Notes under the pieces: model-generated
Database searches by the model: none
What the model saw: the letters and a program-made list of their open reading frames with translations, nothing else
What the model was told of the DNA's origin: nothing
From: a virus
Virus record (IMG/VR): IMGVR_UViG_3300020456_000187
Span: 1 to 28,306 of that record
Strand: one strand, 5' to 3'
DNA: 28,306 nucleotides
Program-made: the position numbers and the translations under genes
In this document: positions 581-27,731 of the stretch, piece by piece
Position numbering within the stretch: position 1 is the stretch's first letter
Layout of the letters: each line of letters starts with the position of its first letter

Positions 581-1429
581 ATGCCACGAAGACCACCGGC
601 ACATCAGCCGAGAAGATTGAGAACCAGAGCAGATGTAACTCAGTCATCTAAGTTCAAAGACATCAGTACCCCAGACGACAGGCCTAACGCTGCACAGAGA
701 GGCTACTGTAGCAAGAAGCATAGAGCATGGCGTAAGGCAGTTTTATTGAGAGACGCTTGGACGTGCGTGAAATGCAAGCGTGTGTGTACGGATGAGAAAG
801 AAGCACAGGCTGACCACGTATCACCGATAGTCCGTGGTACTGACCGTTGCAGAGATGGGTCGGGTAGGTACGACGTAAGCAACGGGCAGACATTGTGCAT
901 GACGTGTCATGCTAAGAAGACAGCTGAAGAGTCAGGTAGAAGAAGTAAGTACTGTTCGTTTCATCCTCAGTGGTTACCAAAAAGCAACATACCTGTAACG
1001 CTTGTATGTGGACCGCCTGCTAGTGGTAAGACTACATACGTCAAAGAGAACATGAGCGAAGGCGATATAGTTATAGATACTGACGCGATAGCTAGTGAAG
1101 GCTTAGAGGATACAGTGCATGACTGGAGCAGAGATAACCTTAGTGAAGTCATAAGGAAACGTAACGCTATGATAGCCGAACTGCACCGAGAAGAAGTAGC
1201 GGGTAGGGCATGGTTGATATGTTGTGAACCAGACCCCGGGCATAGACAGTGGTGGGTAGATAAGATCGGGGTGGGTAGAGTAGTTGTTATTGAAACGGCA
1301 GCGGGTGTGTGTGAGCAAAGAATACAAGCGGGTGGGTCAGACCGTAGCGGACAGCGTGGGGCAGCAGTCCGTTGGTGGCGTGAGTACGTCACCCGTTTTG
1401 GAGAAGAGCGGGTAGTGGTCGGTGATTGA
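581..1429 (+). CDS. HNH endonuclease fused to a P-loop kinase-like domain
   Basis: This 282-residue protein has two parts. Residues about 40-120 form an HNH nuclease with zinc-binding CVKC (62-65), the catalytic DH pair (78-79), Asn101 and CMTCH (106-110). Residues about 138-282 form a P-loop domain with Walker A GPPASGKTT (144-152), then VIDTDAI (165-170), as in small kinases where an Asp-x-Asp follows a strand, and a basic Arg-rich C-terminal region like a lid. HNH proteins are established partners of terminase in HK97-type packaging, so the nuclease half probably acts in cos cleavage or packaging. The P-loop half could be a polynucleotide kinase or a nucleotide/base kinase, and its substrate cannot be read from the sequence. 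The start is 5 bases after the previous stop. Homing nuclease activity is an alternative, but the fixed fusion argues against it. Confidence 0.8.
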   Translation: MPRRPPAHQPRRLRTRADVTQSSKFKDISTPDDRPNAAQRGYCSKKHRAWRKAVLLRDAWTCVKCKRVCTDEKEAQADHVSPIVRGTDRCRDGSGRYDVSNGQTLCMTCHAKKTAEESGRRSKYCSFHPQWLPKSNIPVTLVCGPPASGKTTYVKENMSEGDIVIDTDAIASEGLEDTVHDWSRDNLSEVIRKRNAMIAELHREEVAGRAWLICCEPDPGHRQWWVDKIGVGRVVVIETAAGVCEQRIQAGGSDRSGQRGAAVRWWREYVTRFGEERVVVGD

Positions 1430-1864: not shown

Positions 1865-2467
1865 ATGGCAATACGGAATAGGGTTCTCGGCCTAACCTAC
1901 GTAACCAAGGAACTGCTTAAACCTAACCCGCGTAACTGGAGGACCCACCCTGACTTCCAGAAGACTGCGCTCAGGCAGATCCTGTCTGAAGTCGGAGTAG
2001 CAGACGCCTGCATCGCACGGAAACTTCCAGACGGATCACTCGAACTGATTGACGGTCATATGAGAAGAGAAGAAAGCGAAGGCAAGATACCTGTATTAGT
2101 CTTGGACGTGACTGAGCAAGAAGCAGACAAACTTTTAGTGTCACTTGATCCGCTGAGTGAACTTGCTGAGTCTGATGAGACCTTGTTAAGAGACTTGATG
2201 AAGACAACAAAGGTAGACAACAAAACTTTGCGTGACTTTATAAAGTCATCAGCACCAGACGCACTTGAAGAAAAGAAACAAGAACTGCAGCAAGACGACA
2301 CCTTTATCAATAACTCGATTAAGAAGGTCATTATAAACTTTGAATCGGAAGAGTATGAACAGGTTGTAGAGGCGTTGAAAGAAGCTGGTGAATCATTAGG
2401 CTTTGAGGACAACACTCAAATAATAGTTAAGTTACTCATAACAGCGGTGGACGATGAAGACATATGA
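1865..2467 (+). CDS. ParB-like protein, first of three paralogues
   Basis: The protein has 200 residues. Residues about 5-100 form a ParB/sulfiredoxin-type domain: conserved entry motif NPRNWRTHP (21-29), then LIDGHMRREE (61-70) matching the ParB box, then VLVLDV and a DKLLxSLDPL segment. The middle is charged and helical. The last 45 residues form a strand followed by two helices (KKVIINF, then EEYEQVVEALKEA and a C-terminal helix), shared with the second paralogue. ParB-fold proteins can bind DNA, hydrolyse CTP or cut DNA. Phage members of this type often lie beside DNA-modifying enzymes. A weak AGGA precedes the start. It overlaps the methyltransferase gene by 14 bases, so the two are probably translated together. 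DNA recognition for the neighbouring enzymes is my inference. Confidence 0.8.
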   Translation: MAIRNRVLGLTYVTKELLKPNPRNWRTHPDFQKTALRQILSEVGVADACIARKLPDGSLELIDGHMRREESEGKIPVLVLDVTEQEADKLLVSLDPLSELAESDETLLRDLMKTTKVDNKTLRDFIKSSAPDALEEKKQELQQDDTFINNSIKKVIINFESEEYEQVVEALKEAGESLGFEDNTQIIVKLLITAVDDEDI

Positions 2468-3134
2468 CGTCGAAGGTCTTACGTTTAATGTAAGAAGCAA
2501 AGCAGACTCGGCTGTGTGCGACGAGGTGTGCAAGAAGAAAGCATACTTGAAACCACGTTTAGGTTTTGAGCCAAACGAAGGGGACACGTGGATTGATTGC
2601 GGCGCAAACATCGGCGCGTTCGGCGTATGGTTGGAGCAAAGATACAAGTGTGCCGTGATAGGTTACGAAGCATGCCAAGAGAACACAGACTTGGCGAACG
2701 AGAACCTACAATTAAACGGTTGTGAGTCATGGGTTGAAACAGCGTTCGTGACCAGCAAGCCTAAGGGAGTCACGTCAGTTTCATTTAACCCGAAGACACC
2801 TGCACGTTCGTCGATGTTATCTAACGGAGACCAGAGATTTGTAAAGAACGTATGCCTGAATGAAAGCATAAAGCTATATCAACCACAAGGATTGAAGATA
2901 GACATAGAAGGCGGCGAGTTTGCGTTACTTGACGAAGGCATAGACCTGTCAGGGATAACGCACTTAGCTATTGAGTATCATTTTCGTTTTGACAAAGATT
3001 GCAAGAAGGCTTTGAGAAGGTTGCAGCCTTTGATAGATCACTTTGACAAACACAGCATACCGTCAACGATATTCAAAGAAGACCAGTGGCCAGCATGGGT
3101 AGACGCGATGATGTTTTTCTGGAGAACAAAATGA
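2454..3134 (+). CDS. FkbM-family SAM-dependent methyltransferase
   Basis: The protein is 226 residues long. SAM motif I is clear: WIDCGANIG (46-54), followed by an acidic strand end (VIGYEAC, 68-74). The FkbM signature LKIDIEGGEFALL lies at about 147-159. FkbM enzymes usually O-methylate sugars or natural products. Members in phages have been reported near base-oxidising enzymes. Its place between two ParB-like genes, with overlaps of 14 and 4 bases, suggests it works with them rather than on cell-surface sugar. It has no signal peptide and should be cytoplasmic. The length is normal for the family and both motifs are intact. The family call is firm, but the substrate is unknown. Confidence 0.85.
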   Translation: MKTYDVEGLTFNVRSKADSAVCDEVCKKKAYLKPRLGFEPNEGDTWIDCGANIGAFGVWLEQRYKCAVIGYEACQENTDLANENLQLNGCESWVETAFVTSKPKGVTSVSFNPKTPARSSMLSNGDQRFVKNVCLNESIKLYQPQGLKIDIEGGEFALLDEGIDLSGITHLAIEYHFRFDKDCKKALRRLQPLIDHFDKHSIPSTIFKEDQWPAWVDAMMFFWRTK

Positions 3135-3793
3135 AACCTAGAAACAGAATTATTGGCTTGAGGAATGTGAAGGCTTCTGAGTTAGTCGCTAACCCGAAGA
3201 ACTGGAGGAAGCACCCGGAACACCAGCGAGCGGCATTGAAAGGAATCCTTGATGAAGTAGGCATGGCAGACGCCTGCATCGCTACGGAGTTGCACGACGG
3301 CAGGTTGATGCTACTTGACGGTCACTTGCGGGCAGAAGAGTTAGGAGACGAAGAGGTGCCAGTGTTGGTACTTGACGTTGAACCTGAAGAAGCTGACAAG
3401 TTACTCTTGACGCTAGACCCATTAGCAACTTTAGCAGGCAACGACGCAGAGAAGTTAGATGCGTTGCTACAGAAAACAGAGAGTAGGAACGAAGCGTTAC
3501 AAGAGTTGTTTGCTCATACGGCAGCGAAGGCAGGACTGTACGAGTCCATGACCACTGAAGCACCTGCAGAAGAAGTTGAAAGTAAACAGGCAGAAGCCGG
3601 TGATACTGAGCGAGAGTACACCGGTGACAAGTCTCACCAGATTGTTTTGGTGTTCTCGAACGCAGAGTTTGAGGAGTTCTTAGGGGCAGTGGGTGAATAC
3701 GCTGAAAGATTTGGATTGTCGAACAATCGTGAAGTAGTTATGCACTTATTAGAATCGAACGGGTATGCAGTATCTAGACCTGACGCCGGTTGA
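3131..3793 (+). CDS. ParB-like protein, second of three paralogues
   Basis: I chose ATG 3131, which overlaps the previous stop as ATGA, because it makes the N-terminus (KPRNRIIGLRNV) match the other two copies. An in-frame ATG at 3086 would add 15 unmatched residues. The 220-residue product repeats the ParB-type domain: NPKNWRKHP, LLDGHLRAEEL, VLVLDV and DKLLLTLDPL. A Glu/Ala-rich linker follows (about 140-165). The C-terminus repeats the strand-helix-helix unit of copy one (HQIVLVF, then EFEEFLGAVGEYAERFG). The copies are clearly diverged in sequence, so duplication is not recent. It overlaps the oxygenase gene by 29 bases. The likely role is DNA binding or processing alongside the flanking enzymes (inference). 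Confidence 0.8.
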   Translation: MKPRNRIIGLRNVKASELVANPKNWRKHPEHQRAALKGILDEVGMADACIATELHDGRLMLLDGHLRAEELGDEEVPVLVLDVEPEEADKLLLTLDPLATLAGNDAEKLDALLQKTESRNEALQELFAHTAAKAGLYESMTTEAPAEEVESKQAEAGDTEREYTGDKSHQIVLVFSNAEFEEFLGAVGEYAERFGLSNNREVVMHLLESNGYAVSRPDAG

Positions 3794-4601
3794 GATTGAC
3801 ACGAAGTCTTTGCAGAAGAGGTCAGCGAAAGAGGACGACTGTAGTCGTCTGATTACGAATGACTGCATTGTTAGGGTTGACGGCGTTACGAAAGTTGTCT
3901 ACCTGTCGCAAGTTAGGCATCCTGATATTGAGCGAGCAAGAGAAGCTGTAAAAAAGATCAAGTACAACACCTCAACAAGAACAGGCGGCTTAGTATCGAC
4001 CAGTCGTATTTTTGGCTTTGCTCCGAGGAACGTACTGCGAGGTCATCCGTGTAGAGCAACTACGTTAGCGTCAGAGTCACAGTCTCAGCATGACGCTATA
4101 TGTAAGACTGCACCAGTCTTGAATGAGTACTACGAAAAATACTTTCCAGAGATCCACAAGAATCACTCTGAGATGACTGATAAAGTTATGAACGAGTGGA
4201 GGATACCTGACAGCGTATTCACTAGCGGTATAGTCAACTGCAATAACCCTCTGCAGTATCACTTTGACGCAGGAAACTTTAGTCAAGTGTGTTCAGCGAT
4301 GCTAGGTTTTAGACACAAGATACAAGGAGGGTACCTTTCATGCCCTGAACTAGATGCAGCGTTTGAGATCAGCGACTACTCCGTGATACTTTTTGATGGA
4401 CAGAAATTATTGCACGGCGTGACGCCGATGAAAAAACTGTCTGATGAGTCGTTCAGATACACGATAGTTTATTACTCACTGAAACAGATGTGGCACTGCG
4501 ACACGGTAACTGAAGAAGTGGCGGCACTTAGAGCAAGGCGTACTGAGATAGAACGTAGAAAGGTAGCGGTGAAAGCAAGCCATGATAAAAAACAGGATTA
4601 A
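3765..4601 (+). CDS. 2-oxoglutarate/Fe(II) dioxygenase, TET/JBP-like candidate
   Basis: The protein is 278 residues long. The double-stranded beta-helix core shows the full metal and cosubstrate set: YHFDAGNF (165-172, ligands H166 and D168), QGGYLSCPEL (187-196), SVILFDG followed by LLHGV (ligand H217), and R231 in FRYTIVYYS as the probable 2-oxoglutarate-binding arginine. The pattern HxDxxN, then GG(x)L...PEL, then a late LLHGV resembles TET/JBP oxygenases, which hydroxylate methylcytosine or thymine in DNA, more than prolyl hydroxylases. The N-terminal SRIFGFAPRN (80-89) also fits that group. The C-terminus is a charged helix. It overlaps both neighbouring ParB-like genes (29 and 20 bases). 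The oxygenase fold is confident, and the DNA-base substrate is inferred from motif shape and context. Confidence 0.75.
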   Translation: MQYLDLTPVEIDTKSLQKRSAKEDDCSRLITNDCIVRVDGVTKVVYLSQVRHPDIERAREAVKKIKYNTSTRTGGLVSTSRIFGFAPRNVLRGHPCRATTLASESQSQHDAICKTAPVLNEYYEKYFPEIHKNHSEMTDKVMNEWRIPDSVFTSGIVNCNNPLQYHFDAGNFSQVCSAMLGFRHKIQGGYLSCPELDAAFEISDYSVILFDGQKLLHGVTPMKKLSDESFRYTIVYYSLKQMWHCDTVTEEVAALRARRTEIERRKVAVKASHDKKQD

Positions 4602-5172
4602 AGAGTTGAGGAATGTTAAGTCAAAAGACTTAGTACCTAACCCAAAGAACTGGAGGACGCACCCGAAGAAACAACAGGAAGCCTTGAAGAGCATACTCGG
4701 AGAGATTGGCTTTGCAGATGCGGCACTTGCTAGAGAGTTACCTGATGGCAGGTTGATGTTGATTGACGGTCACTTGCGAGCAGAGACAACACCTGAAGAA
4801 GAACTACCTGTTTTAGTGCTAGACGTTAACGAAGAAGAGGCAGACAAGTTACTACTGACTGTAGACCCACTGTCTGAGATGGCAGGCACTGACGTCGAAG
4901 CGTTGAATGACTTGAGAGAAAACGCAGAGACAGCCAGCGAGACTTTGAAAGAGTTGTGGTCTGAGCAGTCAGGTGCTTTGACATCTGAAGCCGTTGAACC
5001 TCCGAAGGTTAAGAAACTAGAAGTTAGGACACCTCCGAAGATGGCATGGGTTTTGTTCGGCGTACCCGTAGTACGATTTGGAGAAGCACAACCACATATT
5101 GACGCTTTGTCGAAGATTAACAACTCCACCTTACTGAGTACAACCAATGACACGACTTATGAAAAAGACTGA
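4582..5172 (+). CDS. ParB-like protein, third paralogue with a different C-terminus
   Basis: The protein has 196 residues. The N-terminal ParB-type domain is intact: NPKNWRTHP, MLIDGHLRAE, VLVLDV and DKLLLTVDPL match the other two copies. After residue about 130 it departs from them. The strand-helix-helix end is missing and is replaced by PPKMAWVLFGVPVVRFGEA and a short alpha/beta-looking tail. This suggests a different partner or oligomer. It overlaps the oxygenase gene by 20 bases and the next gene by 14-26, depending on that start. No good ribosome binding site precedes the ATG, so coupling to upstream translation is likely. Confidence 0.78.
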   Translation: MIKNRIKELRNVKSKDLVPNPKNWRTHPKKQQEALKSILGEIGFADAALARELPDGRLMLIDGHLRAETTPEEELPVLVLDVNEEEADKLLLTVDPLSEMAGTDVEALNDLRENAETASETLKELWSEQSGALTSEAVEPPKVKKLEVRTPPKMAWVLFGVPVVRFGEAQPHIDALSKINNSTLLSTTNDTTYEKD

Positions 5173-5731
5173 CAATGACTTCTTAGCAAGCAAGTTGGCT
5201 TTGAGAAGGTTTATGCTTGATCGCTTTCATGCAGACGGAGACATTAGAGTCTTTGATTGTTGTCAAGGAGACGGTGTTGTATGGTCTGAGTTGAGGAAAG
5301 ACTTTGACTTACAGAAGTACTGGGGCGTTGATGTAAAGAAACGTAGAGGCAGACTAAAAGTAGACTCGAAGAGAGTGGTAGCACAGCCGGGGTTAAACTG
5401 CAACGTAGTTGACATAGATACTTACGGCATGCCGTGGGACCACTGGCTTAACTTGTTTCCTAACATCACTGAGCCAACTACAGTGTTCCTGACCATTGGC
5501 TTGATAACGATGGGCGGCGGTTCAGCTTTGTCGAAGACGATAAGAAACTTTATGCAGTTTCCGAAAGACTGGCCTTTGTCTCCAGTCTTTACACCTGAGA
5601 TAGTTACGCAGTCAGTGCAAAGGTTTCTTGCCTTAACTAACGACAGAGGGTTTAAAGTTGTTGAAGCATACGAAAGCGACAAGGGGCGAAGTGCAAGGTA
5701 CATAGGATGTCGCATAGATGTTGCAACTTAA
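5147..5731 (+). CDS. SAM-binding-like Rossmann protein, possible methyltransferase
   Basis: The protein has 194 residues. A motif like SAM motif I is visible, VFDCCQGDGVVW, ending a strand after the first helix. A YWGVDVKK segment follows, like the second strand with its acidic end, then NVVDIDTYGMPWDHW and a hydrophobic strand TTVFLTIGLITMGGG. The glycine motif has a single central GDG, so it may be catalytic or degenerate. Starts at 5147 and at ATG 5159 are both possible, and neither has a strong ribosome binding site. It lies directly before a Gp37/Gp68 gene, and such genes are known to pair with methyltransferase-like TcmP proteins. A similar pairing is possible here but not shown. No closer family is recognised. 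Confidence 0.6.
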   Translation: MTRLMKKTDNDFLASKLALRRFMLDRFHADGDIRVFDCCQGDGVVWSELRKDFDLQKYWGVDVKKRRGRLKVDSKRVVAQPGLNCNVVDIDTYGMPWDHWLNLFPNITEPTTVFLTIGLITMGGGSALSKTIRNFMQFPKDWPLSPVFTPEIVTQSVQRFLALTNDRGFKVVEAYESDKGRSARYIGCRIDVAT

Positions 5732-5939
5732 CCCTCCTATATGGGTCAATACGCCACTTGGAGAAGGGCATGCTCTAGTCATCATAGACTACGGCGTATC
5801 AATCAATACGGTATGGTTAGTGCATTTGTTTGAAACAGGGAAGGTCATTCACATAGACAGCAGTGAGATCAGAGTGATGGGAAACGATATGTACGGTATC
5901 GAACACCCGAGGCAACCGTTAAGAAGCATGCACAAGTAA
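5718..5939 (+). CDS. Small conserved phage protein (73 aa), unknown function
   Basis: The protein has 73 residues and is mostly beta, with the pattern NPPIWVNTPLGEGHALVIID near its start, followed by two more hydrophobic strands and an Arg/Gly-rich tail. Small proteins with a PxxVxTPxGEG start and an IDYG motif are common close to terminase or DNA-metabolism genes in diverse phages, and none that I know of has an assigned function. It overlaps the previous gene by 14 bases and closes the chain of overlapping genes that starts at 1865. A promoter follows it, so it probably ends that transcription unit. Confidence 0.6.
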   Translation: MLQLNPPIWVNTPLGEGHALVIIDYGVSINTVWLVHLFETGKVIHIDSSEIRVMGNDMYGIEHPRQPLRSMHK

Positions 5940-5945
5940 TTATCA

Positions 5946-5974
5946 TTGTTCTATTGTCTCGCTTTGTCTATAAT
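5946..5974 (+). promoter_or_regulatory. Sigma70-type promoter before the Gp37/Gp68 and terminase genes
   Basis: TTGTTC (5946-5951) and a perfect TATAAT (5969-5974) are separated by 17 bases, the optimum for sigma70-type promoters. Transcription would start near 5981, upstream of the GGAGGA site (5995-6000) of the gene at 6008. It lies in the first clear gap after seven overlapping genes, so it probably begins the packaging and head transcription unit. The -35 half matches consensus at only three positions. Confidence 0.6.
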
Positions 5975-6007
5975 CTGGCATTGAGTTTAACCACGGAGGA
6001 CAAAACG

Positions 6008-6769
6008 ATGCCAGAGAAAACTATAATAGCTTGGACTGATCACACTTTTAACCCTTGGATGGGATGCGTCAAAGTCTCGGCAGGATGTGCTAACTGCTAC
6101 GCTGAGAAGTTGACAACAGACCGGATGGGATTGAGGTTATGGGGCAAGGACTCTAGCCGCAAGGTTACTGTAACACCTTGGAAGAACGTCAAGACATGGA
6201 ACAACGCTGCTAAGAGAGACGGAGTACAAAGAAAAGTTTTTTGTGCGTCACTGTGTGATGTCTTTGAAGATCATCCTACTGCCAACGCCACACGTCCTAA
6301 GCTATGGGAACTTGTTAGGGAGTGCCAGAATCTTGACTGGCAGATACTGACAAAGAGACCAGAGAGAATCAGAGACAACTTGCCTGAGTCGTGGGGTGAT
6401 GAAGGTTGGAGCAACGTATGGTTAGGCACTAGCGTAGAGGACATGCGAGTGGCTGAACGTGTTGACCATCTTAGAGACATACCTGCTGTAGTTAGGTTTA
6501 TCTCTTATGAGCCAGCGATAGGACCGTTGGACGACTTAGACATTAGTGGCATAGACTGGATCATATACGGTGGAGAGTCAGGACCGGGATACAGACCAGA
6601 GAATAAAGACTGGGCTAGAGTTATGCACAAGAAGTGCATTGAGTCTGAGGTTGCTTTTTTTCACAAGCAGTCGTCAGGTTATCGCACTGAGTTAGGTATA
6701 GAGCTAGACGGCAAGATTGTCCGTGAGTACCCGACACCACGCCGAGTGAGTAACGCAACTTTATTCTGA
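6008..6769 (+). CDS. Phage Gp37/Gp68 family protein (DUF5131), three-Cys radical-SAM-like
   Basis: The start at 6008 is set by GGAGGA (5995-6000) seven bases upstream. An in-frame ATG at 5954 lies inside the promoter and adds 18 unconserved residues. The 253-residue product carries the family signature near its N-terminus, TFNPWMGC, then SAGCANCYAE, with Cys20, Cys27 and Cys30 placed as if to hold an iron-sulfur cluster. The rest follows the family pattern: VFCASLCDVFED, WQILTKRPER, VWLGTSVED, RFISYEPAIGP and WIIYGGESG. This family has a radical-SAM-like barrel, and no reaction that I know of is established for it. It may act on nucleic acid, with a methyltransferase-like neighbour upstream as possible partner. 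Confidence 0.88.
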   Translation: MPEKTIIAWTDHTFNPWMGCVKVSAGCANCYAEKLTTDRMGLRLWGKDSSRKVTVTPWKNVKTWNNAAKRDGVQRKVFCASLCDVFEDHPTANATRPKLWELVRECQNLDWQILTKRPERIRDNLPESWGDEGWSNVWLGTSVEDMRVAERVDHLRDIPAVVRFISYEPAIGPLDDLDISGIDWIIYGGESGPGYRPENKDWARVMHKKCIESEVAFFHKQSSGYRTELGIELDGKIVREYPTPRRVSNATLF

Positions 6770-6777
6770 GGAAACTT

Positions 6778-7302
6778 ATGGGTAAAAGAGGACCTAAGCC
6801 ACAGCCTTCAATTATTAAGTACATCAGAGGCAACCCGAGCAAAGAGGCTTTGCCTACTGATGAACCTACTCCAGATTTATTACCCATAAGAGTTCAGCCA
6901 CCTGAGTGGCTTGAAGGCAGAGCCGTTGAAGTATGGCACAAGTCGGTAGAGCGTCTGTCGAACATGAGAGTTTTGACTGAAGCAGATGTACCGGCAGTGG
7001 CTAGGTATTGTGTAGAGACAACCCTATATCTTGCATGCTATGAGAAAGTAAAGACAGCCGGTGAGGAGTACATACACTGGGAGCCTGATCCAAACAGGAC
7101 TGACGGCAAGCTGAGGATTAAATATACTCAAGTTGCGCCGTGGGCTACTCAGATGAATCGTCATCACGCTAACATGCTACAGATCGAACGAGAGTTTGGC
7201 ATGACTCCGAGTAGTCGAACACAAATCTCTACAGGTATAGAAAAGCAAGATGACCCGATTAGAGCGTTTGCCAAAAAACGAAGCGATAGAGCAGGGGCTT
7301 GA
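6778..7302 (+). CDS. terS: Terminase small subunit, P27 family
   Basis: The protein has 174 residues. The N-terminus MGKRGPKPQP and IRGNPSKE, the PPEWLEG segment and the helical body (AVEVWHKSVERL, then LTEADVPAVARYC) are the hallmarks of P27-type small terminase subunits. These bind the phage DNA packaging site and hand it to the large subunit. The region up to about residue 110 contains an inserted polar loop (EEYIHWEPDP). The C-terminus PSSRTQI is also typical. GAGGAAA eight bases or so upstream of the ATG can serve as ribosome binding site. It overlaps the large subunit gene by 53 bases. Confidence 0.88.
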   Translation: MGKRGPKPQPSIIKYIRGNPSKEALPTDEPTPDLLPIRVQPPEWLEGRAVEVWHKSVERLSNMRVLTEADVPAVARYCVETTLYLACYEKVKTAGEEYIHWEPDPNRTDGKLRIKYTQVAPWATQMNRHHANMLQIEREFGMTPSSRTQISTGIEKQDDPIRAFAKKRSDRAGA

Positions 7303-8854
7303 GTACTACTTCAATGAAGACAGGGCGTTGCACGTCACTGAGTTCTTTGAAAGTTGGTTGAGGCACAGCAAAGGCAGGTTTGCCGGAAAGCCTTTTGAGT
7401 TGCTACCTTGGCAGCGTAACATGCTTGAAGAACTGTTCGGATGGGTCACGGTTGACTCAGAGCTACGTCGGTATCGAATGGCATACGTGTCGACGGCGAA
7501 GAAGTCAGGCAAGAGCACTCTGTTGGCAGGCATCGGTTTATACATGCTAGTTGGTGACGGTGAACCGGGATGCGAAGTATACGGTGCAGCGAGTGACCGT
7601 GAACAAGCAGCACTGGTTTATAGAGAAGCCGCGTCTATGGTTCGTGCTTCGCCTTTTCTTTCACAGAGTCTTGAAGTTGTAGACTCTAGAAAAACTATAG
7701 CGTATAAGTCTGAGTCATCATTCTATAGAGTCTTATCAGCCGACGCTTTCAGAGCAGAAGGATTAAATATCCACGCTTTATTATTTGATGAGCTACATGC
7801 ACAAAGATCGCGGGAATTGTTTGATAGTTTGCGTTACGGTGGAGCGGCAAGAGAGCAGCCACTTCTATGCTCGATAACAACAGCAGGTTATGACCGCAAC
7901 TCGATATGCTGGGAACAGTATTCATACGCAAAGTCGGTGCTAGAAGACTGGACGTATGACCCGTCGTTCTTTGCCTGCATATATGAAGCAGAAGAGTCAG
8001 ACGACTGGACTGACAAGGAAGTGTGGCCGAAGGCAAACCCGTCTTGGAACGTCACGATAAACCCAAAGACGTTTGCTACTGACTGCAAAGAGGCACAAGT
8101 ATCTAACACGAAAGAGAACGCATTCAAACGATACCGTCTGAATATGTGGACGCAATCAGACACACGTTGGATAAAGTCTGAAGCGTGGACGGCATGCTCT
8201 AGTGGACCGCCTGCAAGTCTTGAGGGTCGAGAGTGTTGGTGTGGTCTTGACTTGGCAACGACATACGATACGTCTGCATTCGTTGCGGTGTTCCCTGCAC
8301 CTGATGGTACATACGACGTACTGTGTAAGTTTTGGATACCGGGTGACAATGCACTAGACCGAGAAAAACGTGATCGAGTACCGTATACAAGATGGGCTGA
8401 CGAAGAAGAGAACGGGCTGACGATGACTGACGGAAATGTTACGGACTACGATATAGTGAGGAGAGACATAAACGAGTTCTCGAAGGTCTATAATATAAGA
8501 CAAATAGCTATTGACCGTTGGAATGCAACTCAGCTGTCGATTCAACTGCAAGGGGATGGCCTTGAGGTGGTAGGATTCGGGCAGGGGTTTGGCTCGATGT
8601 CTGCACCGAGCAAACTTTTAGAGAATTTGATTGCCTCAGGCAAGTTGAGACATGGAAACAATAAGATACTAAACTGGATGGTTGGAAACTGCAGCGTCAA
8701 GGTGGACGCTTCAGGTAACATGAAACCTATAAAACCTAAAGCTGGTTCACCCGAACGTATTGACGGCGTAGTGAGTCTAGTGATGGCACTCGGTGCGCAC
8801 AGTAGCGAAAGACCCGAAGGCGAAACTCCACAACCTAACATAGTGATGATATGA
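7250..8854 (+). CDS. terL: Terminase large subunit (packaging ATPase and nuclease)
   Basis: The protein has 534 residues. It is the ATP-driven DNA packaging motor and genome-cutting nuclease, acting at the portal vertex. The ATPase half shows FELLPWQRNML, Walker A STAKKSGKST (81-90) and Walker B LLFDE (177-181), followed by a coupling motif region (LLCSITTAG). The nuclease half shows CGLDLATTYDTSA around residue 333, with the first metal-binding Asp, and IAIDRW near 420. Length and order are normal for HK97-type large terminases. The start overlaps the small subunit gene by 53 bases, which is long, and a later start cannot be excluded. It ends with ATGA overlap into the portal gene. Confidence 0.95.
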   Translation: MTRLERLPKNEAIEQGLEYYFNEDRALHVTEFFESWLRHSKGRFAGKPFELLPWQRNMLEELFGWVTVDSELRRYRMAYVSTAKKSGKSTLLAGIGLYMLVGDGEPGCEVYGAASDREQAALVYREAASMVRASPFLSQSLEVVDSRKTIAYKSESSFYRVLSADAFRAEGLNIHALLFDELHAQRSRELFDSLRYGGAAREQPLLCSITTAGYDRNSICWEQYSYAKSVLEDWTYDPSFFACIYEAEESDDWTDKEVWPKANPSWNVTINPKTFATDCKEAQVSNTKENAFKRYRLNMWTQSDTRWIKSEAWTACSSGPPASLEGRECWCGLDLATTYDTSAFVAVFPAPDGTYDVLCKFWIPGDNALDREKRDRVPYTRWADEEENGLTMTDGNVTDYDIVRRDINEFSKVYNIRQIAIDRWNATQLSIQLQGDGLEVVGFGQGFGSMSAPSKLLENLIASGKLRHGNNKILNWMVGNCSVKVDASGNMKPIKPKAGSPERIDGVVSLVMALGAHSSERPEGETPQPNIVMI

Positions 8855-20085: not shown

Positions 20086-20460
20086 ATGGCCAGCAATCCT
20101 ACTTATTCCGTCTTACCTGCGACGTTAGATATAACGGCATTGAAGGGTGACGAGTTTGGAATGGATCTAAACTTTTCAGTCAACCTTTCAAACTACACGT
20201 GGGAAGCGTTTGTTTTCAAGACAAGAAGAACAGTCAATAGCCAGTATCCCGGCGGCTTGAACACTCAAGGAGAAACGGCGGTTACGTTTACAGTGAACGT
20301 AGTCGACGCGGCTAACGGCGAGTTAAACTTACACCTTGACGAGACTGATACGAACGACTTAGACGAAGCGATTGCATACAGATGGTTACTTAGAGGAGTC
20401 GCACCGGGGTCAGTTACAAGAACTTATGTCAGCGGAGCATTTACGGTACAAGCACCATGA
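20086..20460 (+). CDS. Baseplate-type beta domain protein (124 aa)
   Basis: The protein has 124 residues. The layout SVLPATLDITALKGDEFGMD, then TWEAFVFKTRRT, GELNLHLDETDTND, AIAYRWLLRG and TYVSGAFTVQ matches the compact beta domain found at the N-terminus of BppU-like baseplate proteins and beside fibre genes, which attach fibres to the tail tip. Its stop overlaps the giant fibre start by four bases. It is likely a fibre adaptor. Alternatives are a tail-tip Ig-like protein. Confidence 0.55.
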   Translation: MASNPTYSVLPATLDITALKGDEFGMDLNFSVNLSNYTWEAFVFKTRRTVNSQYPGGLNTQGETAVTFTVNVVDAANGELNLHLDETDTNDLDEAIAYRWLLRGVAPGSVTRTYVSGAFTVQAP

Positions 20461-23400
20461 GTATTTCAATCAATGTGAGTTCGAGTACCGGCGGCGAAAT
20501 AACTGTCGGTGATAGTTCTGCACCAAATATTTCACTAGACGTTACTGGAGGCGTAGGACCTAGTGGCGCAGGCGACCTGACGCTGGCAGCGGGAACAGGT
20601 ATTTCGATTGTTCAATCGTCCGGTACCGCAACTATCAGTTCAACCGTCACGGGGTCTGGTAATCTTGCTCTGAATGACTTGACCAACGTGAACGCCTCAA
20701 GTCCCAGCCAAGGGCAAATATTAGAGTATAACGGGACTCAGTGGGTGGCGGCTTCTAGTGACACGGGGTCAAACGTCACCAGTCTGGGGACGCTTTCAGA
20801 CGTTACGCTGAGTAGCACTTCAAGCGGCCAATTTTTGTCCTACAACGGCACTGCATGGACTGCGGTAGATGCACCGTCAGGAGGCGGTACGAGCGATCTG
20901 GCACTGTCTACGAGCGTCCCCGGGGCAGATCTCGGTACTTCAGGCGTAGGATCATCCGGTCGGGCTGCACGGGCTGACCACGTTCACGATATGCCAACAC
21001 TCGGAGACGTACTGAGTAAGTCTGATGTAGTGACCGGTGATGTATCGTTAACAAGCACAAGCAACTTTTCGATAACTGCACAGGGCAATAGCTTTGTTGT
21101 ATCGAGTGGTCAGTCAGAGTTGACAGTAGCAGGCGGTTCATCCGGTTCAGGTTCATTGACTTTGAACTGCGAGCAGAACAGTCATGGCGTTACCATTAAA
21201 GGACCAGCACACTCAGCAAGTGCAACTTATACCTTGACGCTTCCTGATGATGTCGGTTCAGCAAATCAGCTTTTGACAACTGACGGTACGGGGGGGCTAT
21301 CTTGGTCAACACCTGAAGCTGCATCAGGTTTTGTATCGTGGACAACGACTGCGCCTACCACAAGTAACACGACAGGCTCTGGTGGCGACATAGCTTATGA
21401 CGCAAGTGGTTTTTATTACGTGCATACAGGTACGAGTTGGGTTCGCACTCAGTTAGAAGAGTTTGGCGTGTCGACTCCAGTTATCTCGATAGACCAGCAA
21501 CCTGAAAACGCAACCATAAACCAGAACGGTAACGGGCAGTTTAGTGTGTCAGCCTCTGTAACTGGAGGAGCATTGCTCACGTTCCAGTGGGAGAAAAGCA
21601 CGAACAACGGCGCATCATGGTCAACGCTTGCAGGCTTCACTAGCAGCGTACTGTCACTAACTGGAGTGTCTATTAATCAAGACGGTACTTATTACAGAGT
21701 TATAGTTTCGTCAGCAGGAGCGACGAGCGTTACCAGTAATTCAGCGATACTCACAGTCGGTGAAGGCAACGGGATAGTAACAGAAACAAACGACTTGATC
21801 CTGACAGAGTCGAATGACATTCTTAGGTTTGACGAGTCGACCGTCGAAGCTGGTACGATAACGATAACTTCGCAAAGCACTTCCGCTAGTCTCAGCGCAA
21901 GCGGAGAAGCTACGTTTACAGTTGATGGGACAGCAAGCAACGGAGCAACAGTACGCTTTCAATGGCAAGAAGCTATCAGTATTAGTTCGACCTTTACTAA
22001 CATTGGCGACACGGTGACGGGCTATAACTCACCCGAACTGAATCTTACCAATACTACATCAGCAAAAGACGGATACGCTTATAGATGCGTACTGAGTGCT
22101 AACGGTTGTGACGACGCAACTAGCACACCCGTGATACTTAGTGCCTCAGCAGTTTTGGGAAGAGAAGGCAGCAGGATTACGAGCGTTACGGCAGCTGATT
22201 TTATTGGTAGAACCACAGCAGTCAATGAAGACGGAACGAGAGTTGTAGTTGGCGGCGATAAGTTTTGTAGAGTTTACGAGTACAACTCAACAAGCGATAC
22301 GTGGGACCAGAAGGGCAACGACCTGAGGAACTTTGCGGAAGGGTCTACTTCTACGGAGAAACTAGATTTTGGCGTAAATGGATTCTTTGCCTCTATGTCA
22401 GACGATGGATTAACTGTAGCTATAGGCGACAGAAATTGGAATAACGGTTCAGCAGGCAGCACTGATCGAAGTGGAGCGGTTGTAGTCCTTGAGTACAACA
22501 GTACTTCAGACGAATGGGACGAGAAGGGAGACGCAAACGACATTCACCTTGCAACGGTGTACGCACAAGACAGCACCCTTGGCGTTGGAGCAGCTGGTGG
22601 CGGCTGGACGGTTCATTTGTCAGGCGACGGTGACACGGTTTATATCGGTGGCGACCCCAATGAAATAGTAGGAAGGAATGAGGGCGCGAGAGTTTTTCAT
22701 TACGACTCATCAACCACAACTTGGAAGCCAAGGTTTACCAGTGCTAACGACTTGCAAGCAACTTACTTTCACGGCATAGACAGTTATGACATTAGCGGAC
22801 TAAGTTACTACCAGTCCGTCAGTGCCACTTCAGAAAACATGATGACGCTTGTGACATCAGACTCTACGGATGGCAAAGTTTTTGTTGCAGACTATCAGGG
22901 TGATTACGATGACACAGACATGACAAACTTCGGATACAACCAAGCAAGCGGAGGATATAAGGGTCAGGTGTTGTCGCCGGTTGCAGGACAAGAATCAAGA
23001 ACAGATATCAACGGGTATTACGGAAAGTCTGTAGACCTATCATCAGACGGGTTAGTGCTATCCGTTGGGGTGTATCGAGGATACGCACCGGGAGAGACAG
23101 CAGCAGGCGATAGCACAGAGTGTAAACCCGGTGCTGTAGTTGTATACGAAAGAGATGCAGTCGGTGACGACTTTACTAGAAGAGAGTTGCTGAACGGAAC
23201 AGTATGTCACACATCCCAATACGGAGGCACCAGCACGCCCATCTCGCAGAGATACTTCGGGGCAAGAGCATGCCTTAACGAAGATGGTAAGATTCTTGTT
23301 GTGGGGTCAGACTACGGAGCACTCTGGTTGTTTGAGTGGAACGGTAGTCAGTACGAACAACTCGGAGGCATTGTTACACCCGGTACGCTTGAAGGTTTTT

Positions 23401-25181
23401 CTGACGCAGAACTTGACGAAGAGTATAATTCGCAGTGGTCTGAGTTCTTTAACTTGTCAAAAGACGGAAGCACTATTGTTTTAGGCGACAGTCTATTTGA
23501 CATCGGAAGTTTAGTTTACAACGTCGGTGCAGTAGACGTACTTAAATTAAATAGAAGCGTAGCTATCACGACACAGCCTGCTTCGTCATTGACAGTGTTT
23601 GATGGGCAGATACAGCCAACCGTAGAAGCGACGGTGTCTACCGGTACGGTTATTAAATTTTTATGGCAAGTTAAAGCGTCTGGTACTTCGACGTTTGTTG
23701 ATACTTCTTATACAACTAAGAATCCTACTATTACCGGCCTCACGAATTCCAACAATGGCGATGTGTACCGCTGCGTAGTCTCGGCAGCAGGAGCCACATC
23801 AGTTACTTCAAATGAAGTTACTGTCGTAGCGTCAAGCTGGACAGCAAGAGGAGGCAACATATGGGACACCGCTCAACCTTTAGTTACTGGTTCTTTGTTG
23901 TCACCTTGCGGTCTTAGTGACGACGGTTCAAGAATTATAGTTGGAGCACCCGGTCAAAACACTTACGCAGGTCACGCGCAAGTACTTGAGTACGACTCAT
24001 CAACAGATGCGTGGTCGAGATTAGGTCAAGTGCTAGACACAGGCGAGAGTCAATTTACTTTCGCCGGAAAAGATGTTTCGATTTCATCAGATGGCAATAG
24101 GGTTTTAGTCAGCGGAGGTATAGACACTAACTTTCTGACTGACAACTTGCAACGCAATAGGCGATACATGGTCTTTGATTACAACTCAACATCAGACGCG
24201 TGGACAGCGAAGTTTACTTGGTTGAGTAGCCGATACCTAGACATTAGAGAAATTAAAATGAGCAGAGACGGAAAGTATCTGTTCATGTCAGTTTACCGAA
24301 CAGGTAGCTCGAATGACTTGTATGTAGTTAAAGTGTCTGAGTTAGGAACCACTGCGCAAACCACAGAAATACCTCGCAACTACATGAGGACTCAGGACGC
24401 ATCTGGCAACGCTGACGGATTAGGCACAACGTATGGATTAACTCAGAGTCTTTCGATTAGCGACGAGTACACTGAAGGCGACGACAAGTTTGTTAATGTT
24501 GCATTCGGTAACTTTTACGGAGACGATACTTCGTATGGTCAAGAAGGCAGAGTGCGAGTCTTTAAGGTAAACGTGAACAACTATACTGAAAGCACCTCAG
24601 GAGGCTCGACGCTTATAACAACCACGATGGAAGGCTTGAAGGTCACTAATCACTCATACTTCGGTACGGATATAGCTTTAGACAAAACAGGAAAATGGTT
24701 GGCAGTTGGAGCACCGGGTACGTTTGACGGTGGAGCGGCTGTATCATCATCGCTTGATATCTCTGAAGGAGCCGTATATGTATATCAGCTTACTGGGACA
24801 TCAACGTGGCAGCAACGCGGTCTTCCGTTTGGACTCTCAAGAACGGGAGGGAGTATATCTGGAATAGCAGACTCCTACAAAGGAAGCGGCAGCGGTACAT
24901 CTTTAGATATAAGCGGCGATGGATCGAAAGTTATTGTTGGAGCACCATACCGTACTGGGCCGACTGAAGTGAAGAGTGGAGCCGTTAAAGTCTTTGAGTA
25001 TGACTCAGTAAACCAAGAATGGGATGCAGTTATAACAACTTTAGTAGGAGACGACGCTGAACAGCAGTTCGGGTTGCACGTTGCAATAAGTGGTGACGGC
25101 GAAGTTATAGCGGTAGGTGCGCCGAGAGACGATGCAGTGAACACAAACGCCGGTTCGGTTAAGTCTTACTCAGGTTCTTAA
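20457..25181 (+). CDS. Giant tail fibre with Ig-like and beta-propeller-like domains (1574 aa)
   Basis: The gene starts as ATGA overlap. Residues 1-335 hold phage fibre repeats: LNDLTNVNASSPSQGQILEY and LGTLSDVTLSSTSSGQFLSY (each followed by NGTxW), a HVHD site near 175, and a GSANQLLTTDGTGGLSW motif near 265-283. Three Ig-like domains lie at about 338-436, 467-564 and 1035-1126, each with a central FQWE/FQWQ/FLWQ strand and a YRx(V)VS strand. Ig1 and Ig3 share AGATSVTSN. Two propeller-like regions (567-1033 and 1128-1574) are made of FG-GAP/Kelch-like repeats such as DGLTVAIGDR, DGSKVIVGAPYR and DGEVIAVGAPRDDA. It probably binds the host surface. A polymerase-style open frame of this length shows no break. 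Calcium-binding DxDG-like turns are possible. Confidence 0.88.
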   Translation: MSISINVSSSTGGEITVGDSSAPNISLDVTGGVGPSGAGDLTLAAGTGISIVQSSGTATISSTVTGSGNLALNDLTNVNASSPSQGQILEYNGTQWVAASSDTGSNVTSLGTLSDVTLSSTSSGQFLSYNGTAWTAVDAPSGGGTSDLALSTSVPGADLGTSGVGSSGRAARADHVHDMPTLGDVLSKSDVVTGDVSLTSTSNFSITAQGNSFVVSSGQSELTVAGGSSGSGSLTLNCEQNSHGVTIKGPAHSASATYTLTLPDDVGSANQLLTTDGTGGLSWSTPEAASGFVSWTTTAPTTSNTTGSGGDIAYDASGFYYVHTGTSWVRTQLEEFGVSTPVISIDQQPENATINQNGNGQFSVSASVTGGALLTFQWEKSTNNGASWSTLAGFTSSVLSLTGVSINQDGTYYRVIVSSAGATSVTSNSAILTVGEGNGIVTETNDLILTESNDILRFDESTVEAGTITITSQSTSASLSASGEATFTVDGTASNGATVRFQWQEAISISSTFTNIGDTVTGYNSPELNLTNTTSAKDGYAYRCVLSANGCDDATSTPVILSASAVLGREGSRITSVTAADFIGRTTAVNEDGTRVVVGGDKFCRVYEYNSTSDTWDQKGNDLRNFAEGSTSTEKLDFGVNGFFASMSDDGLTVAIGDRNWNNGSAGSTDRSGAVVVLEYNSTSDEWDEKGDANDIHLATVYAQDSTLGVGAAGGGWTVHLSGDGDTVYIGGDPNEIVGRNEGARVFHYDSSTTTWKPRFTSANDLQATYFHGIDSYDISGLSYYQSVSATSENMMTLVTSDSTDGKVFVADYQGDYDDTDMTNFGYNQASGGYKGQVLSPVAGQESRTDINGYYGKSVDLSSDGLVLSVGVYRGYAPGETAAGDSTECKPGAVVVYERDAVGDDFTRRELLNGTVCHTSQYGGTSTPISQRYFGARACLNEDGKILVVGSDYGALWLFEWNGSQYEQLGGIVTPGTLEGFSDAELDEEYNSQWSEFFNLSKDGSTIVLGDSLFDIGSLVYNVGAVDVLKLNRSVAITTQPASSLTVFDGQIQPTVEATVSTGTVIKFLWQVKASGTSTFVDTSYTTKNPTITGLTNSNNGDVYRCVVSAAGATSVTSNEVTVVASSWTARGGNIWDTAQPLVTGSLLSPCGLSDDGSRIIVGAPGQNTYAGHAQVLEYDSSTDAWSRLGQVLDTGESQFTFAGKDVSISSDGNRVLVSGGIDTNFLTDNLQRNRRYMVFDYNSTSDAWTAKFTWLSSRYLDIREIKMSRDGKYLFMSVYRTGSSNDLYVVKVSELGTTAQTTEIPRNYMRTQDASGNADGLGTTYGLTQSLSISDEYTEGDDKFVNVAFGNFYGDDTSYGQEGRVRVFKVNVNNYTESTSGGSTLITTTMEGLKVTNHSYFGTDIALDKTGKWLAVGAPGTFDGGAAVSSSLDISEGAVYVYQLTGTSTWQQRGLPFGLSRTGGSISGIADSYKGSGSGTSLDISGDGSKVIVGAPYRTGPTEVKSGAVKVFEYDSVNQEWDAVITTLVGDDAEQQFGLHVAISGDGEVIAVGAPRDDAVNTNAGSVKSYSGS

Positions 25182-25227
25182 AGTTTGCACAGTTTTATAT
25201 ACTCAAGGATAAACGGAGTTTTAGCAG

Positions 25228-25476
25228 ATGGCAGATAAAAAAATTAGCGAATTAACAGCTAACACAAACCCGTCGAAGGACGACATTGCACCCGTAAGTA
25301 ACTCGGCGGCAACATCAACCAGCAAAGTAACGCTGAGGAACATTGCAAAAAACTTTTCTGACAACACAGGAATTACTGGAGCAGATAAAGTTAGCAACAT
25401 AGTTAGCCTTACTCAGTCTGAGTACGACGCACTTAGTAGTTATGACGCAAGCACAGTTTACATTATTGTCGGTTAG
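25228..25476 (+). CDS. Small fibre-associated protein (82 aa)
   Basis: The protein has 82 residues. The start MADKKISELTA with the following DDIAPVSN and TSKVTLRNIAKN is a standard phage structural module that forms short trimerising or tail-attachment segments. The second half, NIVSLTQSEYDALSSYDAST followed by VYIIVG, is a small domain found at the ends of many fibre proteins. It lies between the two propeller-bearing fibre genes and probably helps join fibre parts. A GGAG about 10 bases upstream of the ATG can serve for initiation. No enzyme motif is visible. Confidence 0.65.
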   Translation: MADKKISELTANTNPSKDDIAPVSNSAATSTSKVTLRNIAKNFSDNTGITGADKVSNIVSLTQSEYDALSSYDASTVYIIVG

Positions 25477-25484
25477 GGAAAACA

Positions 25485-26834
25485 ATGGGCATAGAACTTG
25501 GTGAAGGCGGTTACGGACAGCAGACCGTTGTGAAGATGTATGTTGGCACAAACGCGGTGTCCAAAGGATACCTCGGTACCAGCTTATTTTATGATGCGTC
25601 CTCATCAGATAGTTCAAGTTCAGGCACTAGCTGGACGCAAAGCGGGCAAGACATAGTCGGTTCTGACGCTGGCGATCATATGGGGTACAGTCTTATGCTG
25701 TCTGAAAACGGCTACAGACTTGTAGTGAGTGCATACAAAGAGGACGTAAGCACCGGCTCAGACAACGGTGTTGTCTACGTTTACAACATAAACTCAGAGA
25801 ACACCACTTGGTCGCAAGTTGGTAACTCAATTACAAACAGCGTTGGTAACGCGCAAGACTACTCAGGCTTTGCAGTAGACTGCGACAGGTTAGCAGGAAG
25901 AGTAGTAATAGGAACGCCGTACAGAGATTCAAACAGCAAAATAAACAACGGTTTAGTCAGAGTGTTTGATTTGAACAGTTCTAACACTAGCTGGGTGCAG
26001 TCAGGCACCGATTTTGCTGGAGCAAACGGAGGCGACTTATTTGGATGGTCAGTAAGCATGAGCGACACCGGGTCAAGGATGGTTATAGGTGCGCCAACAC
26101 AAGACTCAGAAGCTATGCCTTCAGGTAACGAAGCTGGCAGAGTAGTCGCATACGAACTCTCAGGCAGTACGTGGTCTGTACTTGGCAACGTAACAGACAT
26201 GCGTGGCGAAGCTACTGACGAAAATTTTGGATGGTCATGCGATATGTCGGCAGACGGAGCATACATAGTAGCAGGAGGCGCAGAAACAAACGGAAGTGGC
26301 AGCGGAGTAGCAAGAGTTTACGGGTATGATTCGTACAACGATGAGTGGACGCAAGTCGGTTCTGATATAGACGGTGACGACACCAACGATTCATTCGGTG
26401 CGTCCGTAGCTATAAACAGAGACGGCACAAGAATTATTATCGGAGGCGTATACGGTGGAAATAACTCCTCTGGTTACGCAAAAGTGTATGCCAGAAGTGG
26501 AAGCAACTTTACTCAGTTAGGCTCTACCATATACGGCTCCGATAACGAAAATTTTGGAAGATCAGTTGACATAAATGAAGACGGCGATCGAATTGTAATC
26601 TCTGGCATGATTGCAGATAACTCAACAGGTGTAGCAAGAGTGTACGAGTGGAGCGGGTTGCAGTGGTCGAAGATGGGAGCAGACTTCGACGGTGCAAGAA
26701 GCAACAGCCTTCTTGGAAGCAACGTAGCGTTTGACGCAGACGGTACTACTCTCGCAATAGGATCTTCACAATACGATGGCGTAAACAACGACACTGCAAA
26801 CATAGGACGAGCCAGAGTCTTTAGGTGGGGTTAA
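25485..26834 (+). CDS. Second tail fibre: single seven-bladed beta-propeller (449 aa)
   Basis: The protein has 449 residues. After an N-terminal attachment part (GYGQQTVVKMYVGTNAV and a Ser-rich linker), residues about 55-449 are seven similar repeats of some 55 residues. Each has FGxSVxxxxDGxRxVIG, then a GxxxVY or ARVY strand, and ends in WxQxG. The seven core motifs are at MGYSLMLSENG, SGFAVDCDRL, FGWSVSMSDTG, FGWSCDMSADG, FGASVAINRDG, FGRSVDINEDG and LGSNVAFDADG. The N-terminal SWTQSGQDI supplies the strand that closes the ring, as in propellers with a velcro closure. It resembles the second half of the larger fibre. Host surface binding is inferred. Confidence 0.82.
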   Translation: MGIELGEGGYGQQTVVKMYVGTNAVSKGYLGTSLFYDASSSDSSSSGTSWTQSGQDIVGSDAGDHMGYSLMLSENGYRLVVSAYKEDVSTGSDNGVVYVYNINSENTTWSQVGNSITNSVGNAQDYSGFAVDCDRLAGRVVIGTPYRDSNSKINNGLVRVFDLNSSNTSWVQSGTDFAGANGGDLFGWSVSMSDTGSRMVIGAPTQDSEAMPSGNEAGRVVAYELSGSTWSVLGNVTDMRGEATDENFGWSCDMSADGAYIVAGGAETNGSGSGVARVYGYDSYNDEWTQVGSDIDGDDTNDSFGASVAINRDGTRIIIGGVYGGNNSSGYAKVYARSGSNFTQLGSTIYGSDNENFGRSVDINEDGDRIVISGMIADNSTGVARVYEWSGLQWSKMGADFDGARSNSLLGSNVAFDADGTTLAIGSSQYDGVNNDTANIGRARVFRWG

Positions 26835-26837
26835 TTT

Positions 26838-27731
26838 ATGACTCACCAAAACGTAGCTGTAGTACTCTCGTTTTTTGCGCCGGTTCCATACGAGTTACCT
26901 GTCAGACACTTTCACGCTGTCTTGCATACCCTGCATGCACAAGGCATACCGTTAGTTGTTACTCAAGCAGTGTACCCCGGGGGGGAGGCTGAGTATGTAC
27001 CGTCTTGTATTCCGCAAGCGGCCTATGACACAAAAAGTTTTTTGTTCCATAAAGAAAGACTATGGAATCTTGCAGCCGGTCTAACTGATGCAGACAAACT
27101 TATATTCTTAGATGCAGACGTTGTGTTTGGCGCAAGTGATTGGCTCACTCAGTGCGTATCTTGCTTAGACCGCTTTGACATTATTCAGCCTTACACTAGA
27201 GCAAGATGGTTGGACTATTCTGGCAGGCCAGACATGGAACGCCCACCATTTACTGAAGCTATAAGTAAAAACTTACCGCCTAAATTTAAAACATATCACC
27301 CGGGTTTCGGATGGGGAATGACAAGAAGAGCATTTGATCTCATAGGAGGTTTCTACGACTTGAGTGTATGTGGTAACAGTGACAGTTTGTTTGCCCTGTC
27401 GCTAAGAGACAACGAACTTCAGGCACCTATTGTGAAATGGTTTGGTGATGTTCAAGACCCGTCAATCATGTGCCAGTCTTATAAAGACTATAAGAAGAAT
27501 GCGAGCGGACTGAACTTAAAAGTTGGATTACCTAAAGGCGTTACGCTTACGCACCTATGGCACGGCGATAGAGGAAACAGGAATTACGTCAACAGAGGCA
27601 AGTTGTTTCCTCGTAAGCCAAACTCAGAGTACCCATGCCACACAGCAAGCACCGGTTTACTTGAGTGGGACGACTTAACGACAAATGACCTAGTGCATAA
27701 ATATTTTGTGGAGAAAAAGGACGATGGTTAA
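26838..27731 (+). CDS. GT-A type glycosyltransferase
   Basis: The protein has 297 residues. The nucleotide-sugar fold shows VAVVLSFFAP at the start, an Arg/Trp-rich region (HKERLWNLAAG), and the metal-binding DxD motif in LIFLDADVVFG (D92 and D94). A C-terminal half with YHPGFGWGMTRRAFDLIGGF resembles the acceptor part of galactosyltransferase-like enzymes, followed by LTHLWHGDRGNRNY. All expected motifs are intact. There is no signal peptide, so it acts in the cytoplasm, on phage DNA, virion proteins or host sugar precursors. It follows the fibre gene after three bases and overlaps the sulfotransferase by eight. A run of G (27? bases into the PGGE codons) is unremarkable in length. Confidence 0.82.
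   Translation: MTHQNVAVVLSFFAPVPYELPVRHFHAVLHTLHAQGIPLVVTQAVYPGGEAEYVPSCIPQAAYDTKSFLFHKERLWNLAAGLTDADKLIFLDADVVFGASDWLTQCVSCLDRFDIIQPYTRARWLDYSGRPDMERPPFTEAISKNLPPKFKTYHPGFGWGMTRRAFDLIGGFYDLSVCGNSDSLFALSLRDNELQAPIVKWFGDVQDPSIMCQSYKDYKKNASGLNLKVGLPKGVTLTHLWHGDRGNRNYVNRGKLFPRKPNSEYPCHTASTGLLEWDDLTTNDLVHKYFVEKKDDG

Follow-up and report, generated by a model that had tools for sequence, protein, structure and literature searches.

What are three ParB-like genes doing among DNA-modifying enzymes in a single run of overlapping phage genes? The question is raised by IMG/VR virus record IMGVR_UViG_3300020456_000187, whose complete 28,306 bases are the window analyzed here; terminal repeats were not found, so the record may be a fragment. 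On its plus strand, genes for three ParB-like proteins (ParB1, 1865–2467; ParB2, 3131–3793; ParB3, 4582–5172) alternate with genes for an FkbM-family methyltransferase (2454–3134), a TET/JBP-family 2-oxoglutarate oxygenase (3765–4601), and a protein we call orf6 (5147–5731, with an alternative ATG at 5159). Sequence comparison identifies this block as a phage locus for DNA modification that occupies a recurring slot. We consider it reasonably probable that it comprises three stacked modification cassettes, in which each ParB would be a dedicated accessory subunit of the enzyme that follows and would carry an enzyme-specific C-terminal tail.

A first-pass annotation, made from the sequence alone, had grouped the three ParB-like proteins by two shared motifs. 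The grouping holds: the positions of NPxNWRxHP and D-G-H-x-R-x-E are invariant across ParB1, ParB2, and ParB3, and most core residues of both motifs are also invariant in a 34-member family alignment. A ParB3 query retrieved the other two proteins with E values of 8e-47 (60% identity) and 2e-38 (52%), and on these sequence grounds the three are homologous. Common to all is an N-terminal module (N-module) of ~120 residues, while the C-terminal tails differ. Pfam ParB_N (PF02195) was below cut-off or gave no match for all three window proteins; matches to PHROG ParB profiles lay between 1e-10 and 1e-12, and those to a ParB-methylase profile reached 1e-13. For ParB2, the AlphaFold model has a predicted local distance difference test (pLDDT) score of 77, falling below 50 in a disordered linker (residues 142–165) and rising to ~90–96 in two tail helices (residues 177–194 and 199–209). 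Foldseek matched this model to Noc (7nfu), ParB (6sdk), and Srx (6ky4) with a probability of 1.00 and a best E value of 1e-4; as modeled, ParB2 has the ParB/sulfiredoxin α+β fold. Residues D63, G64, H65, and R67 of the pocket motif (GxxR) are invariant in 34 sequences. In the tail of ParB2 (~3566–3778), the two confident helices follow an extended segment, an arrangement that agrees with the phage-ParB alignment and is predicted to be ribbon-helix-helix (RHH)-like. A PDB sequence search with the ParB, TET, or orf6 proteins returned nothing useful. We rejected a canonical partition ParB of the ParABS type: no helix-turn-helix (HTH) family of Pfam was matched in the window ParB proteins, and no match to the ParA-type PF13614 was found in the possibly fragmentary record.

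The two enzyme families named at first pass were recovered by profile searches. The methyltransferase matched PF05050 (36.3 bits, cut-off 22.7) and TIGR01444 (48.4 bits, cut-off 37.7), and the oxygenase matched PF12851 Tet_JBP (47.4 bits, cut-off 34.9). The oxygenase retains the HxD, H, and R residues (H166, D168, H217), and its HFD, HGVTP, and R elements align with those of phage TET proteins. FkbM adjoins TET in four related viral loci (L004, L009, L010, L072) and in the phages HTVC112P and MED4-184. This context favors a DNA-base pathway for FkbM, which is predicted to O-methylate the TET product. No C5-methylase (PF00145) was found in the window, which may be incomplete, or in nine isolated phages that carry TET; thymine is therefore favored as the TET substrate, although this is unproven and a host methylase could serve as the C5-methylase partner. 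In public records (e.g., NC_011044.1 gp2, JF974286.1 CPAG_00033), phage TET genes carry the name "queuine tRNA-ribosyltransferase" and a ParB that of "DNA methylase"; these look like misannotations.

ParB-family genes were found beside DNA-modifying enzymes repeatedly when conserved gene order was searched, so the case in which the two never co-occur does not hold. The comparison set consisted of 80 viral loci with a related ParB. Their common layout is HNH, ParB, one or more modification enzymes, terminase small subunit, terminase large subunit, and portal; an HNH gene lies upstream of ParB in many of them, and terminase homologues follow ParB and the enzymes in ~50. At least eight unrelated chemistries occupy the position after ParB. 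The enzymes include a fused N6/N4 methylase, C5 methylase, TET/JBP, a TAGT glycosyltransferase with UDP-galactopyranose mutase, DpdA-like proteins with QueC/QueD/QueE/FolE, Mom, a PAPS-reductase type, radical SAM, ABC-ATPase plus GNAT with a formyltransferase, and an amino-acid:DNA transferase with a DNA kinase. The DpdA-like genes are preceded by a ParB of the window's family in L006, L016, L054, and others. Covalent fusions (ParB to N6/N4 methylase, and ParB tail to ABC/GNAT in L070) place the N-module and an enzyme in one chain.

The tails follow the enzymes. On clustering, ParB tails group by enzyme class, and N-modules that are 86–94% identical nevertheless carry unrelated tails and precede unrelated enzymes. 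Mapped onto the N-module tree, whose resolution is poor, enzyme class switches 35 times. The correspondence was probed in three ways that drew on data outside those in which the pattern was discovered. In one of them, a hidden Markov model (HMM) of the TET-associated tail was trained on nine metagenomic ParB proteins, excluding the window, and run against 12,779 frames. Matches below 0.01 were exclusively ParB proteins of TET loci, among them those of Pelagibacter phage HTVC112P (8.5e-12), Mycobacterium phage Nigel (8e-5), and Gordonia phage LittleMunchkin (2e-4), all adjacent to TET; the ParB proteins of these three isolates were not detected by an N-module HMM at 1e-3. The strand-helix-helix tail also aligns in Kharcho, Tonitrus, Margaery, Bolt007, and MO526, and more loosely in MED4-184. 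Isolated actino-, pelagi-, and cyanophages all keep the TET-type tail together with TET. Within the window, the model matched ParB2 (E = 1.6e-15) and ParB1 (E = 8e-4; tail at ~2267–2443). Bacterial genomes provided another test: among 52 independent contigs, the tail predicted the next enzyme in all 33 testable cases, with none wrong, and one contig showed no enzyme downstream of ParB. Because nearly all of these cases belong to the ABC/GNAT class, this test probes specificity more than breadth.

The remaining test started from the tail of ParB3 (~4999–5169). Viral contigs were scanned, blind to neighboring genes, with WVLxG[VIM]Px[VIM]RFG written as a degenerate DNA pattern. The pattern was found in 11 contigs, and an orf6 homologue lay beside or after the ParB in every one; the N-modules were of several types (DGHLR, GHGR, GNGT). 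In the reverse scan, made with an orf6 motif, a ParB with this tail (tail-3) was directly upstream of 37 of the 40 orf6 genes that had room upstream, and tail-3 was present in none of 132 other ParB loci. The ParB3 tail itself matched the tail-3 HMM with an E value of 4.1e-15. The loci examined contain 67 orf6 homologues, and the window protein matched an orf6 HMM built without it at E = 7e-68. None of 40 family members matched PHROGs, and the only trace of the family in isolated phages was one marginal match (E = 0.2). Earlier searches for close relatives had given no matches, either for the ParB3 tail or, in viral contigs and isolated phages, for orf6; the orf6 search had failed because its exact eight-residue patterns were too strict, and the degenerate motif scan succeeded. 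The family carries the motifs DCCQGxGxxW and DIDTYGxPW, and some relatives match Trm1 guanine-N2 methyltransferase, PrmC, and Methyltransf_23 or generic methyltransferase models weakly. A single-sequence AF2 model of orf6 (pLDDT 41.6) was too low in confidence for use. By sequence, then, orf6 represents a recurrent, uncatalogued family with a weak likeness to class-I methyltransferases.

A third gene accompanies this pair. DUF5131 (Gp37/Gp68-like, with CX6CX2CY; PF07505, 228 bits) is encoded at 6008–6769 on the plus strand of the window, and its start codon, the ATG at 6008, has GGAGG just upstream. A DUF5131 gene was found within 1.5 kb after orf6 in 18 of 49 orf6 loci with room, compared with none of 132 other ParB loci (p = 4e-12). 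On these counts, the window DUF5131 is probably a third member of the ParB3-orf6 cassette, and the functional block probably extends to it. Between orf6 and DUF5131 lies orf7 (5718–5939, plus strand; 73 aa), for which profile searches gave no family.

How did three such units come to lie together? The first-pass annotation had considered the alternating order with three diverged ParB copies unusual. Three copies are indeed unusual among the 80 related viral loci (73 have a single copy, seven carry a pair, and no locus has three), but stacks exist elsewhere: L142 has a ParB fused to an N6/N4 methylase followed by ParB-ABC/GNAT, and in Arthrobacter phage Kharcho three ParB genes precede TET. The tail of ParB2, which precedes TET, is of the type found in the ParB-TET-FkbM loci L004, L009, and L010. 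ParB1 precedes FkbM, and both L072 and cyanophage MED4-184 repeat the order ParB-FkbM-TET. Pairwise identity among the window N-modules is 55–65%, and with those of other phages it reaches 62–71%. Since they resemble the modules of other phages at least as closely as one another, they do not fit a recent local triplication, which we reject; the stack was more likely assembled.

The paralogy of the ParB proteins, the recurrent slot, the correspondence of tail and enzyme, and the recurrence of the orf6 cassette come directly from the computation. From them we infer that a ParB holds or guides an enzyme on DNA. The proposed cassettes are ParB1-FkbM, ParB2-TET, and ParB3-orf6(-orf7)-DUF5131. The N-module would be their common part, an NTP-binding-type ParB/sulfiredoxin fold; NTP binding is suggested by the invariant pocket arginine and by the binding of ATP, CTP, or GTP by ParB folds (PMC12704722). 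Most likely, it would load on phage DNA in an NTP-dependent manner and bring the enzyme there or move it along. The tail, specific to the enzyme class, would either couple the N-module to the enzyme or select that enzyme's DNA context. TET would hydroxylate a 5-methyl group, more likely that of thymine than of 5-methylcytosine, FkbM would O-methylate the resulting hydroxymethyl product, and orf6 with DUF5131 may make a second, independent modification. A broader proposal, which we put forward tentatively, is that these are interchangeable parts, with one ParB loading module plugged to chemically unrelated enzymes, enzyme-specific tails as a code that points to undescribed DNA-modifying enzymes, and orf6 (with DUF5131) as the first uncatalogued enzyme so discovered and the maker of a new DNA modification.

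The first-pass suggestion that each ParB copy serves one enzyme has strong support in two pairs, ParB2-TET and ParB3-orf6, whose tails track the enzyme across unrelated N-modules. Several observations weigh against these proposals. ParB1-FkbM is the weaker pair: ParB1 neighbors FkbM but has a TET-type tail. A zinc-ribbon tail accompanies C5 methylase, Mom (L042, L043), or no recognized enzyme (L056, L063), and strict tail specificity for every class was rejected because this tail is common to several contexts. In Caulobacter phage Cr30 and Synechococcus phage S-CBWM1, the TET genes stand without an annotated ParB neighbor, so TET chemistry does not always depend on ParB. The binding partner of the RHH-like tail could be DNA instead of the enzyme. 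Finally, linkage alone could keep tail and enzyme together as a passive block, exchanged behind a conserved N-module that acts as a recombination hot spot, with no specific relation between the two. The N-modules are indeed highly conserved, all that lies 3′ of them changes together, and the terminase side is conserved too, which would give two homology arms. Linkage alone accounts less well for a pairing that survives both replacement of the N-module by that of a far ParB clade and wide tail divergence in actino-, pelagi-, and cyanophages, that is kept in the orf6 set, where the N-modules are of several kinds, and that leaves a tail-like segment within the L070 fusion. We regard it as unlikely, yet the strongest of the alternatives.

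Dedicated accessory subunits must also be set against two other roles for the ParB proteins. They could be NTP-regulated nickases or nucleases, acting for example on unmodified host DNA, while the neighboring enzyme protects phage DNA in the style of restriction-modification. Nicking or nuclease activity has been reported for the ParB-methylase Bce_0392, Osa, and GmrS (reviewed in PMC5512222), and an HNH gene lies upstream in the window. However, a nuclease would need no separate tail for each modification enzyme, and the ParB partners include late-pathway enzymes (glycosyltransferase, 7-deazaguanine transglycosylase), which makes this role improbable. Less probable still, at a level we would call very low, is that they are transcriptional regulators or partition proteins with the enzymes as incidental neighbors. 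DNA-binding regulators often have a ParB fold or an RHH-like tail, and DndB is a ParB-like repressor (cited in PMC12704722). The lack of PF13614 and HTH matches, reported above, speaks against this role, as do the position of the genes in the late packaging region, the tracking of enzyme type by the tail, and the direct fusions to enzymes.

The presence of ParB beside phage modification genes is already known. The nearest functional precedent is the Dpd 7-deazaguanine system, in which DpdB, a ParB-like ATPase, works with DpdA (PMC12839542; ParB-like also in PMC6392294), so that a ParB-superfamily protein acts with a DNA base-modifying enzyme. In contrast, the N-module of the window's family serves many chemistries via exchangeable tails, and no DpdA was seen in the window, which encodes TET, FkbM, and orf6 in its place. 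ParBc genes recur beside CmoX/CmoA, the C5-modifying enzymes of 5-carboxymethylcytosine phages, and the authors call the role of ParB unknown (PMC12783734). The window enzymes differ from these, and the portion of that paper we consulted reports no tail-enzyme correspondence. In phages, the ParB fold, members of which bind ATP, CTP, or GTP, is found fused to an N6_N4 methylase (Kaljevic et al., 2025, PMC12704722), whereas the window ParB proteins are separate and have short, non-catalytic tails. The isolated phages Nigel, Tonitrus, Margaery, and HTVC112P resemble the window in placing ParB directly or nearly directly before TET (in the order ParB-TET-FkbM in HTVC112P), and the Tonitrus locus is annotated as thymidine hypermodification (PMC11955845). 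They differ from it in having an N-module of another ParB clade, a single ParB, and no orf6 cassette. As for orf6, some members match TRM1 models weakly; the family is short, uncatalogued, and ParB-linked, and presumably acts on DNA, unlike the Trm1 tRNA guanine-N2 methyltransferases. Its DIDxYGxP motif resembles that of Trm1. The tail code and the orf6 cassette appear to be new, with the older phage-TET literature lying outside this comparison.

Some further features of these loci were recorded. The bacterial contigs that carry a ParB of the window's family are mostly from planctomycetes, which suggests, without demonstrating, a planctomycete host. ParB with ABC-ATPase plus GNAT (phrog_11143), sometimes with formyltransferase, occurs in L045, L046, L048, L052, L062, L065, L070, and most planctomycete contigs L100–L142; it is the commonest partnership in planctomycete genomes and looks like an uncharacterized acyl-type DNA modification system. 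Mom-like proteins (phrog_1384) are further partners, at L108:2956–3759 and after ParB in L042 and L043. Tandem ParB pairs with zinc-ribbon tails occur in L024, L033, L034, L037, and L073, preceding a C5-methylase in the last four.

Within the window, an HNH nuclease and P-loop protein (581–1429, plus strand; best PHROG named terminase small subunit) lies upstream of the ParB-enzyme block. DUF5131, terminase small (6778–7302, plus strand) and large (7250–8854, plus strand) subunits, portal, protease, capsid, and tail genes follow in that order, those from the terminase onward being named from their open reading frame (ORF) sequences rather than by profile search. The overlaps from ParB1 to orf7 (14, 4, 29, 20, 26 or 14, and 14 bases by ORF coordinates) are exactly those first noted, but the statement that the genes must be co-translated went too far; the overlaps fit translational coupling without demonstrating it. 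Overlap was rejected as a special mark of ParB junctions (51 of 59 unfused ParB junctions, compared with 66 of 86 other late-gene junctions). A consensus scan gave promoter-like matches at about twice the shuffle expectation (10 versus 5.3, SD 2.3), and terminator matches equaled expectation. By eye, 5925–5976 contains a promoter-like TTGTTC-N17-TATAAT just upstream of DUF5131, which is absent from the scan list. Two proteins of 1574 and 449 aa (20457–26834) consist of repeated units of the G-x-P and S-x-D-G-x-R type, appear β-propeller-like by eye, and are probably a tail fiber or adhesin. At the right end (26838–28299), a glycosyltransferase-like gene and then a sulfotransferase (PF17784) point to possible decoration of surface glycans.

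The correspondence between tail and enzyme makes the role of ParB beside modification genes testable. The tail can serve as a search key for undescribed modification enzymes and has already recovered the orf6 family from viral contigs. If the stacked-cassette reading is true, the placement of such cassettes in one operon would give a single phage two or more independent base modifications, which bears on both restriction escape and enzyme discovery.

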